In this document: positions 42,301-44,752 of the stretch, piece by piece
How the letters are laid out: the number at the start of each line of letters is the position of its first letter
Numbering within the stretch: the first letter of the stretch is position 1
Made by a program: the position numbers and the translations under genes
The notes under the pieces: model-generated
Told to the model about the DNA's origin: nothing
The model's database searches: none
What the model saw: only the letters and a program-made list of their open reading frames with translations
Origin: Atopobium sp. UBA1382
GTDB taxonomy: Bacteria; Actinomycetota; Coriobacteriia; Coriobacteriales; Atopobiaceae
Length of the DNA: 64,000 nt
NCBI GenBank assembly: GCA_002305805.1
Contig: DBQY01000009.1
Location: 79,762-143,761, forward strand
Direction of reading: 5' to 3'

Positions 42301-44391
42301 GTGAGTCAGCAGGAGGCATGGGCCGGCTTTGTCGGCGGCAACTGGGAGCACGAGATCGACGTCCGTGACTTCATCCAGAAGAACTACACCCCCTACGATG
42401 GCGACGAGTCCTTCCTCGCCGGCCCCACGGAGAACACCAGCAAGCTCTGGGGCGAGGTCATGGACCTCTTCCAGCAGGAGCGCGAGCACAACGGCGTCCT
42501 CGACATGGACACCGACCTCGTCTCCACGATCATCTCCCACCCCGCGGGCTACATCGATCAGCCGCTCGAGAAGATCGTGGGCCTGCAGACCGAGAAGCCG
42601 CTCAAGCGCGCCCTCATGGTCAACGGCGGCATCCGCATGGCCGTGGCCGCCTGCAAGCAGAACGGCTACGAGGTCGACCCGGAGATCGTGAACATCTACA
42701 CGAACTACCGCAAGACCCACAACGCCGGCGTCTTTGACGTCTACACGCCCGAGATGCGCGCCTGCCGTCACAGCCACATCATCACCGGCCTGCCCGACGC
42801 CTACGGCCGCGGCCGCATCATCGGCGACTACCGCCGCGTCGCCCTCTACGGCGTCGACCGCCTCATCGAGGAGAAGAAGGCCGAGCACGCCGGCACCCAG
42901 AAGACCATGAACGAGGCCACGATCCGTCACCGCGAGGAGCTCGCGGAGCAGATTCGCGCCCTCCAGGAGCTCAACCAGCTCGGCAAGATCTACGGCTTCG
43001 ACATCTCCCAGCCCGCCAAGACCTTCCAGGAGGCCGTGCAGTGGCTGTACTTCGGCTACCTCGCCGCGGTCAAGGAGCAGAACGGCGCCGCCATGTCCAT
43101 CGGCCGCAACTCCACGTTCCTGGACATCTACGCCGAGCGCGACCTCAAGAACGGCGTCATCACCGAGGCTGAGGCGCAGGAGATCATCGACCACCTCGTC
43201 ATGAAGCTCCGCATGGTCAAGTTCGCCCGCACCCCGGAGTACAACGAGCTCTTCTCCGGCGACCCACAGTGGGTCACCGAGTCCCTCGGCGGCATGGGCG
43301 TCGACGGCCGCTCCATGGTCACCAAGACCGCTTTCCGCTACCTCCACACCCTTGAGAACATGGGCACCAGCCCCGAGCCCAACCTCACGGTGCTCTGGTC
43401 CACGCGCCTTCCGGAGGCCTTCAAGCGCTACTGCGCCAAGATCTCCATCACCACCAGCTCCATCCAGTACGAGAACGACGACCTCATGCGCGTCTACCAC
43501 GGAGACGACTACGCGATCGCGTGCTGCGTGTCCTCGATGCGCATCGGCAAGGAGATGCAGTTCTTCGGCGCCCGCGCCAACCTCGCCAAGTGCCTCCTCT
43601 ACGCCATCAACGGCGGCCGTGACGAGAAGACCGGCGAGCAGGTCGGCCCGAAGTTCCGTCCGGTCGAGGGCGACTACCTCGACTACGATGACGTCGTGTC
43701 CAAGTACCGCGACATGATGCAGTGGCTCGCCGAGGTCTACGTCAACTCGCTGAACATCATCCACTACATGCACGACAAGTACTGCTACGAGCGCCTGCAG
43801 ATGGCCCTGCACGACGAGCACGTGCACCGCTGGTTCGCCACGGGCATCGCCGGCCTCTCCGTCGTGGCCGACTCCCTCTCCGCGATCAAGTACGCCAAGG
43901 TCAAGGTCATCCGCGACGAGACCGGCCTCGTGACCGACTACCAGGTGGAGGGCGACTTCCCCAAGTACGGCAACGACGACGACCGCGTGGACCAGATCGC
44001 CCACGACGTGGTCGAGGTCTTCATGAAGTACGTCCGCGAGACCGACACCTACCGCAACTCCGTCCCGACGACCTCGATCCTCACGATCACCTCGAACGTC
44101 GTCTACGGCAACGCCACCGGCAACACGCCCGACGGCCGTCGCGCCGGCGAGCCCTTCGCCCCGGGCGCCAACCCGATGCACCGTCGTGACACCCACGGCG
44201 CCGTCGCGTCGCTGGCCTCCGTCGCCAAGCTCCCGTTCAAGGACGCCCAGGACGGCATCTCCAACACGTTCTCCATCGTGCCCAACGCCCTCGGCAAGGA
44301 CGGCGCCGTCATGTTCGACGAGCTCGACCTCGACGCCCTCGGCGTGGACATCCAGATCGAGAACCCCGCCCCCGACTGCGGCTGCTGCTAG
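42301..44391 (+). CDS. pflB: Pyruvate formate-lyase core without the glycyl-radical domain
   Basis: Cleaves pyruvate with CoA to acetyl-CoA and formate. 696 residues match PFL from the N-terminus to FSIVPNALGKD; the active-site cysteine pair is Cys408-Cys409 in IACCVSSM. Canonical PFLs (about 740-760 residues) continue directly into the C-terminal domain with the radical glycine. Here that domain is absent: the protein ends with a different tail (about 29 residues) rich in Asp and closing in DCGCC. The missing domain is a separate gene 112 bp downstream. GTG start with AAGGAG 8 nt upstream. The activase gene follows, so this is the functional anaerobic PFL locus. Confidence 0.95.
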   Translation: MSQQEAWAGFVGGNWEHEIDVRDFIQKNYTPYDGDESFLAGPTENTSKLWGEVMDLFQQEREHNGVLDMDTDLVSTIISHPAGYIDQPLEKIVGLQTEKPLKRALMVNGGIRMAVAACKQNGYEVDPEIVNIYTNYRKTHNAGVFDVYTPEMRACRHSHIITGLPDAYGRGRIIGDYRRVALYGVDRLIEEKKAEHAGTQKTMNEATIRHREELAEQIRALQELNQLGKIYGFDISQPAKTFQEAVQWLYFGYLAAVKEQNGAAMSIGRNSTFLDIYAERDLKNGVITEAEAQEIIDHLVMKLRMVKFARTPEYNELFSGDPQWVTESLGGMGVDGRSMVTKTAFRYLHTLENMGTSPEPNLTVLWSTRLPEAFKRYCAKISITTSSIQYENDDLMRVYHGDDYAIACCVSSMRIGKEMQFFGARANLAKCLLYAINGGRDEKTGEQVGPKFRPVEGDYLDYDDVVSKYRDMMQWLAEVYVNSLNIIHYMHDKYCYERLQMALHDEHVHRWFATGIAGLSVVADSLSAIKYAKVKVIRDETGLVTDYQVEGDFPKYGNDDDRVDQIAHDVVEVFMKYVRETDTYRNSVPTTSILTITSNVVYGNATGNTPDGRRAGEPFAPGANPMHRRDTHGAVASLASVAKLPFKDAQDGISNTFSIVPNALGKDGAVMFDELDLDALGVDIQIENPAPDCGCC

Positions 44392-44406
44392 GCCGTTCGG
44401 AGGATT

Positions 44407-44439
44407 CGACAAATGACAGCTGTCTAGTGTCATTTGTCG
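44407..44439. promoter_or_regulatory. Perfect 11-bp hairpin between the two PFL genes
   Basis: CGACAAATGAC (44407-44417) pairs with GTCATTTGTCG (44429-44439). The loop region holds an overlapping palindrome GACAGCTGTC (44415-44424), so two alternative folds or a protein site are possible. A partial terminator or processing site would set the ratio of the two PFL chains. Confidence 0.6.
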
Positions 44440-44461
44440 GGTACACTGTGAGAGACAGGAA

Positions 44462-44484
44462 GGGTCGCCCCGTCGGGGCGACCC
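44462..44484. promoter_or_regulatory. Perfect 10-bp GC hairpin before the radical-domain gene
   Basis: GGGTCGCCCC (44462-44471) and GGGGCGACCC (44475-44484) pair around a GTC loop, ending 19 nt before the ATG and just upstream of the ribosome binding site AAGGGA. It could protect the 5' end of a processed mRNA. Confidence 0.55.
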
Positions 44485-44503
44485 ACGCGAGAAGGGAACT
44501 CAC

Positions 44504-44752
44504 ATGAGCGCTACCGTTGCTCCCGAGCAGGTCGACAACCTCGTCAGCATGATCGACGGCTACGTCGAGGAGGGTGGTCACCACCTCAACGTCAACGTCT
44601 TCACCAAGGAGACCCTGCTTGACGCCCAGGCCCACCCCGAGAAGTACCCGCAGCTGACAATCCGCGTCTCCGGCTACGCGGTGAAGTTCAACTCCCTCAC
44701 CAAGAAGCAGCAGGACGACGTCATCTCCCGTACCTTCCACGAGGCGATGTAA
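44504..44752 (+). CDS. Stand-alone glycyl-radical domain of pyruvate formate-lyase
   Basis: An 82-residue protein that is the C-terminal domain of PFL and nothing else: NVNVFTKETLLDAQAHPEKY, then QLTIRVSGYAVKFNSLTKKQ, ending RTFHEAM. The radical glycine is Gly57 in RVSGYAV. It matches the last 65-70 residues of ordinary PFLs, which the preceding 696-residue core lacks, so the two chains should assemble into one enzyme and the activase should act on this chain. It resembles the radical half of GrcA/YfiD, the spare-part protein that repairs oxygen-cut PFL in E. coli, but without that protein's N-terminal region and here it replaces rather than backs up the domain. ATG follows GAGAAGGGAA. Confidence 0.93.
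   Translation: MSATVAPEQVDNLVSMIDGYVEEGGHHLNVNVFTKETLLDAQAHPEKYPQLTIRVSGYAVKFNSLTKKQQDDVISRTFHEAM

Follow-up and report, generated by a model that had tools for sequence, protein, structure and literature searches.

The 64,000-nucleotide stretch of Atopobium sp. UBA1382 analysed here (contig DBQY01000009.1, positions 79,762 to 143,761, hereafter the window) encodes a pyruvate formate-lyase (PFL) in two pieces, a core of 696 amino acids (aa) and a separate glycyl-radical chain of 82 aa, followed by the activase PflA. PFL, an oxygen-sensitive enzyme central to fermentation, is the standard example of a glycyl radical enzyme and is normally a single protein, with the glycine and the cysteines of the active site on one chain. 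Both open reading frames (ORFs) lie where the original prediction had placed them, and the observation of the split is real. The features of the locus are the following:

42301..44391, forward strand: PFL core chain, 696 aa, with a GTG start, the ribosome-binding site AAAAAGGAG and the catalytic pair Cys408-Cys409 at 43522-43527.
44299..44388, forward strand: core-specific C-terminal tail DGAVMFDELDLDALGVDIQIENPAPDCGCC, unseen in the fused PFLs compared, with the Cys motif DCGCC at 44374-44388.
44404..44442, forward strand: stem-loop in the gap between core and small chain, with a 15-bp stem that 10 selected close loci retain with both-side changes.
44462..44484, forward strand: second stem-loop, GGGTCGCCCC/GGGGCGACCC, without a T-run.
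44504..44752, forward strand: glycyl radical chain, 82 aa, NCBIfam GrcA3, with the Gly57 codon at 44672-44674.
44776..44853, forward strand: long G+C-rich hairpin in the gap between the small chain and pflA (fold of 44752-44900, z -8.13).
44900..45712, forward strand: PflA, radical SAM activase, with a probable GTG start at 44900 in an open frame that begins with TTG at 44789.

The two ORFs of the enzyme lie in different frames, 112 nt apart, and the small chain has its own ATG with GAAGGGAACTCAC upstream as ribosome-binding site. The core alone passes the cut-off of the PFL equivalog model TIGR01255 (1105.3 bits against 994.2) over positions 1-670 of 744, and the radical domain found on one chain with the core in other PFLs is missing from it. 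That domain is the next gene, whose product covers positions 665-744 of the same model and 51-106 of the Pfam model Gly_radical, with Gly57 within RVSGYAV; it passes NCBIfam GrcA3 (NF038360, 165.6 bits for a cut-off of 158) and scores 104.6 bits with the GrcA equivalog TIGR04365, below the cut-off of 170. The gene that follows is the PflA activase (TIGR02493, 255.1 bits for a cut-off of 231.75). In this regard, the description of the small gene as the missing C-terminal domain, with its own ATG and ribosome-binding site and then the activase, was fully borne out; for the core, the match to PFL and the Cys408-Cys409 pair stood, but the chain does not stop after FSIVPNALGKD and runs on for 29 residues with the tail GAVMFDELDLDALGVDIQIENPAPDCGCC. 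The assembly that carries the window comprises 1.99 Mb and is 93.84% complete; its closest named relatives belong to Olsenella and Thermophilibacter. A full-length PFL elsewhere in this genome, which would have spoken against the split, was looked for and not found: TIGR01255 has only the two window matches in the assembly, and Gly_radical, also searched, has a third one (L002) that reads, by eye and without a family scan, as NrdD, the anaerobic ribonucleotide reductase. This sole other glycyl-radical match was rejected as a second PFL on its NrdD-like sequence.

The split is a normal state among the relatives of the window. In a survey of its class (396 genomes), 133 genomes have a match above the TIGR01255 cut-off, and the 134 rows that they contribute (one genome of the same genus, G170, has both types) comprise 31 that reach the end of the model and 103 that stop at positions 662-670. 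A separate radical chain lies downstream of the core and on the same strand in all 40 loci fetched from those 103 split rows. Within the genus, 25 of the 26 genomes with any match, the own one included, are split, G361 (81% complete) having weak matches only, and all 120 listed relatives of the core measure 682-705 aa, so that the expected conservation of the split in related genomes held. Outside the class survey, the best 80 of 557 small-chain relatives in genome contigs are without exception in frames no longer than 243 aa, and a split core is present in the locus for 77 of them, as it is in 34 of 37 further loci examined. Among these best 80 the split is found in Olsenella, Lancefieldella and Collinsella, in Lachnospiraceae (Blautia caecimuris, Claveliimonas bilis, Lachnoclostridium phytofermentans) and in Oscillospiraceae, Ruminococcus, Erysipelotrichaceae, Spirochaetota and other metagenome-assembled genomes; that the arrangement extends beyond this genome and family had gone unnoticed in the original prediction. 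In the class of the Blautia genome G761 (291 genomes), a short-frame radical chain occurs in at least 18, and full-length PFL prevails among the matches listed, which makes the split a minority there; at a threshold of 1e-40 such a chain occurs in 18 of 149 genomes in the class of an Erysipelotrichaceae genome (G772), and in one of 130 in the phylum of the Spirochaetota genome G775, which is G775 itself. Among the matches listed for the class of G761, the 18 stand-alone radical domains score 152.1-170.6 bits and longer frames at most 143.2; such a gap is missing in the class of G772, where stand-alone chains go down to 139.5 bits and one fused domain reaches 139.4.

From the 80 loci, 32 split genomes were picked by hand, nine of them also present in the class survey with identical coordinates. 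The core passes the cut-off in all 32, and an uninterrupted full-length PFL is found as well in three (G759, G761, G771), whereas the fourth long PFL match, in G782, contains a stop and counts as split. Together with the 103 of 134 above-cut-off matches, the 29 picked genomes that have the split form alone support the proposal that a separate radical chain is the normal state. Side by side with this pattern, G170 carries full-length and split PFL at C1:1138764-1141013 and 635779-637788, and in genus g10 one genome (G118) is full-length and another (G130) split, which suggests replacement or transfer.

The residues needed for catalysis are kept in the two pieces. In a comparison of 87 split cores with 51 rows of fused PFLs (E. 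coli numbering), R176, W333, C418, C419 and R435 are identical in all 87 and all 51; R176, W333 and R435 are the substrate residues of the E. coli PFL. The core of the window is homologous to E. coli PflB (PDB 1h16, 2pfl) over residues 5-671, with the same catalytic residues, and its predicted model superposes on 2pfl with a TM (template modelling) score of 0.90 by query length over 677 columns, while small-chain residues 11-82 align to 683-759; where E. coli PflB is one chain, there are two here, and a core tail ending in DCGCC. The natural break corresponds to E. coli 677/678, so the core does not retain a duplicate of the last strand. Across 109 distinct small chains, 38 positions never vary, among them the whole of RVSGYAV. 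Moreover, small chains can be told from fused domains: all 60 fused rows have F at position 21, which none of 109 split rows has there, nor any of a wider split set of 39. Positions 42, 43 and 71 also differ between split and fused, fused-type residues at 42 and 71 being retained by two of 11 plain-split rows.

Gene structure, conservation, invariant catalytic residues, split-specific residues in the small chain and, in most genomes, the lack of an alternative PFL make it very probable that the locus encodes a working PFL of two obligate subunits. Judged from sequence, the two chains would form a complex, take up the radical on Gly57 and have PFL activity. The 696-aa core would contribute the pyruvate and coenzyme A barrel with the Cys408-Cys409 pair, and the 82-aa chain would supply the last helix, the last barrel strand, the glycyl-radical loop with Gly57 and the C-terminal helix. 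The PflA encoded next door would take the hydrogen from Gly57 on the assembled complex, and Gly57 would then hand the radical to Cys409/Cys408 for catalysis. After cleavage of the radical chain by oxygen, only 82 residues would have to be replaced, without the displacement of a damaged stump that GrcA-type repair involves; this benefit might perhaps be the purpose of the split.

Several points weigh against two obligate subunits. The three picked genomes named above and the same-genus G170 also carry full-length PFL, and three short-chain loci have no nearby core: L280 (G1209), L286 (G772, near the contig end) and L287 (G782). G782 and G772 have a split core elsewhere besides the core-less radical chain, and such chains may be GrcA-like spares. 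The predicted model of the core alone (mean pLDDT, the predicted local distance difference test, 80.8) is of low confidence at the active-site end and in the tail, with values below 50 at 319-322, 595-601, 620-632 and 652-696, and the joined model of core and radical chain (mean pLDDT 59.5) gives no support for docking. On the biochemical side, Andorfer et al. 2021 (PMC8683613) describe an artificial E. coli split, tPFL(1-695):truncYfiD (YfiD 61-127), which installs less radical than PFL (2.7 against 17.2 uM), and report no detectable binding of YfiD by tPFL. In favour of two subunits, the same construct is a precedent: once activated it turns over at least as fast as PFL, with an apparent kcat of 204 +/- 32 s-1, against 105 +/- 7 s-1 for PFL. 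The natural pair resembles this construct closely, but its break lies 18 residues upstream, and the helix before the last strand goes with the radical chain.

Another purpose for the split would be dosage or regulation, with the level of the radical chain differing from that of the core and set by the intergenic stem-loops. The gap between the two genes, with its two stem-loops, folds with a z of -4.45, and the stretch between the small chain and pflA with the still lower value given above. Over 10 close loci, 96.7% of the 150 cells of the first stem are paired, with nine both-side changes for a shuffled mean of 3.8, and in 48 of 97 loci the fold of the gap has a z below -2, a count without control intergenics for comparison. 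On the other hand, the 10 loci had been selected for sharing the stem, which is missing in the same-genus short-gap loci L037 and L104, and the number of pairs with both-side changes (three) does not exceed that of the shuffles. Dosage as the main reason for the split is possible but rather doubtful. As an observation apart, the stem, with its both-side changes, is followed by TACACTGTG (44404-44450 in all), nearly invariant in the 10 selected close relatives; this element may be an operator, a promoter element or an RNA hairpin, a hairpin and a palindromic operator being indistinguishable here, and Rfam has no match within the window. Two copies of the radical chain, one on each side, flank the split core in L112 and G758 (Olsenella phocaeensis; G758 C1:99242-99472 and 104659-104889), perhaps a duplication for dosage or as a spare part.

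A pair that uses another 2-ketoacid rather than mainly pyruvate is improbable. TdcE-like activity has 2-ketobutyrate as substrate, and near the Cys pair position 412 is S in 85 of 87 split cores against A in 49 of 51 fused rows, with H400 also in 85 of 87 split cores; yet the core scores above the PFL equivalog cut-off and its substrate residues and cysteines are unchanged, as seen in the comparison above.

Even less likely is that the small chain is a spare of the GrcA/YfiD type for an intact PFL elsewhere, with the core as a by-stander or relic. GrcA/YfiD is likewise a separate chain that bears the RVSGYAV radical loop and presumably docks on the PFL core. Moreover, the NCBI name of the small chain is autonomous glycyl radical cofactor GrcA3, a family missed in the original prediction and also assigned to Olsenella, Thermophilibacter and Atopobium proteins; it scores 104.6 bits with TIGR04365, and some genomes have an extra radical-chain copy away from any core (L287). 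However, that score remains under the GrcA cut-off, and the chain lacks the N-terminal ~60 residues of GrcA, a protein of 127 aa with an extension of that size, which repairs oxygen-cut full-length PFL. The window chain, at 82 aa, takes in the helix that precedes the last strand, and no other PFL radical domain was found in the assembly. An intact PFL to be repaired was found neither in the own assembly, at its stated completeness, nor in 29 of the 32 other genomes, and the catalytic residues of the core are invariant. The spare-part reading is mostly refuted because the full-length PFL is missing. The name GrcA3 implies a repair cofactor where the genomes point to an obligate subunit, and the annotation GrcA3 given to small chains in these genomes thus seems to be a misreading.

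Separate genes rather than an artefact are seen in 117 measured loci (110 distinct). The small chain starts with ATG in all of them, and a Shine-Dalgarno-like sequence precedes it in 114, where shuffled bases give a mean of 52 and a top of 68 in 200 shuffles. The gap measures 91 nt at the median and up to 420 nt; the value of -3 for L112 is meaningless, the radical chain found there being on the opposite side of the core. Core and small chain share a frame in 45 of 117 loci, near the one third expected by chance, and an extra ORF lies between them in 27. Two loci, L135 and L164, have zero bases from stop to ATG and are in frame, but with those gaps, frames and intervening ORFs elsewhere, and because every small chain has its own ATG, the frames are random and the catalytic residues invariant, a sequencing error, programmed frameshift or stop read-through that would fuse both frames in the cell is excluded for practical purposes, sequencing error also by the same-genus genomes and the constant length of the listed core relatives.

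The split cores carry a part that the original prediction had missed, a tail with a Cys motif that is elsewhere a separate third protein. The tail begins after ALGK, ends in DCGCC in the window and is unseen in the fused PFLs compared. In the 117 loci it is acidic (29.5% D+E, 2.9% K+R) and holds at least two Cys in 85, none in 32 and never exactly one. For 27 of the 32 Cys-less tails, a third ORF lies in the gap between core and radical chain and ends in a motif like DCxxGxxACxxPTLFEGLD; a stricter pattern recovers 24 of the 27, and the third ORF of L154 looks shortened by the chosen start. The product, ~50-81 aa long, stands alone as a protein in various Lachnospiraceae, Ruminococcus and Erysipelotrichaceae (for instance L128:5580-5783 and L150:5764-5967, besides 35 other loci). 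The 34 further loci, 31 with the core in or near the 34 stretches of the surveys plus the chosen G782 loci, add 13 with a Cys tail, 10 with a third ORF and 11 with neither. Here the third ORFs of L303 and L290 were found by profile, that of L290 lying downstream of the radical chain and containing a TGA, and L284, which has two Cys without the motif, is a Cys tail in the counts and in the FastTree analysis but plain in the IQ-TREE analysis and tree test described below. Altogether, the Cys module of 151 loci is in the core tail in 98, in a third ORF in 37, in neither in 16 and never in both (91, 37 and 16 of 144 once loci with an identical core end and small chain are removed). Most of the plain two-chain loci, with neither, branch close to the base of the split group in the trees.

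A profile of the third chain (A3), built from 21 of the 37 third ORFs, has a full match in exactly the 37 third-ORF loci when scanned against the 151 whole loci, 16 of them outside the profile, and none in Cys-tail or plain loci. In its N-terminal part the third chain aligns with GrcA3 between position 2 and positions 28-32 (E 1.3e-6 to 5.8e-5), and the profile also matches the starts of radical domains (about 3-34). Its Cys part matches the core tails of G892, G890 and G865 (E 6.7e-5 to 9.1e-4), but in the scan of whole loci only four core tails of the 98 Cys-tail loci; that the shorter motifs, including the DCGCC of the window, would form part of this module is argued from position and exclusive distribution rather than from alignment. 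Among the matches listed for the class of G761, a full-length third chain occurs in 8 of 291 genomes, all within the 18 with a free radical chain. In six tail-less genomes of family f3, probably Collinsella (G231 read, five identified by the 688-aa frame), no third chain was found elsewhere at E <=0.05, the sole match being the start of the radical chain. Small accessory chains with Cys motifs beside the glycyl radical enzyme exist in benzylsuccinate synthase and 4-hydroxyphenylacetate decarboxylase. The third ORF is comparable to those subunits, but here the radical domain itself is a separate chain; the profile finds no subunit of either enzyme in the PDB at E <=1, and neither Pfam/NCBIfam (five third chains) nor PHROGs (two) gives an accessory iron-sulphur subunit family. 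A protein database holds 583 third-chain matches at E <=0.001, those with a name among the 120 listed being hypothetical proteins, and the third chain appears undescribed in the literature searched. It could act as a placeholder, a docking aid or a redox or metal gate. Tentatively, then, split PFL could be modular, with up to three encoded pieces: the core, the radical chain and a Cys module that copies the radical domain in part, with the helix and last strand but without the radical loop, and adds a DCxxGxxACxxPT-like motif, present as a free protein or as a motif of the core tail. Such a module might hold the place of the radical chain or gate its docking and opening, with its cysteines as a metal or redox switch, and the radical part might thus be swappable or protectable under oxygen.

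As regards ancestry, a first tree has one split clade (all 87 split rows, no fused row inside), but its split rows from outside the class had been chosen by likeness to the window. With the survey loci included, FastTree places 21 of the 51 fused PFLs within the split clade, and IQ-TREE nests all 11 of those 21 that were sampled. In the approximately unbiased (AU) test, the tree holding the 39 split rows together is 20.6 log-units better, with p-AU 0.706; the tree of the C-terminal domain needs three changes. Since p-AU is 0.706 and the nested fused rows have C-terminal residues (F21, M42, L71) that match other fused PFLs, a single fission is not rejected, though neither is it proven.

Annotation anticipates the natural split in part, and so do two PDB deposits that the original prediction had overlooked. 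Both are named Formate acetyltransferase: 38lb has 739 aa and ends split-like, aligned to core residue 679, and 38la has 687 aa and ends split-like at core residue 667, so someone has already worked on split cores. The two are absent among the 50 fold matches listed (library to 2026-04-08), a search of the PDB gave no GrcA3-type chain, and no paper on 38la or 38lb was found. A description of natural split PFL or of GrcA3 was likewise not found in the literature searched, which covered few subscription papers and some result lists partially. In one transcriptome study of Fannyhessea vaginae (PMC11979175), grcA (-17.96) and pflB (-14.31) fall together, the split being unconfirmed in that genome.

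The third chain, a hypothetical protein wherever it has a name, is a new candidate component of PFL. A natural obligate split in gut genera such as Collinsella, Olsenella, Blautia and Ruminococcus would mean that a radical subunit need not be a spare part but can belong to the enzyme permanently, and split PFL would offer a ready system for studies of docking, activation and oxygen repair.

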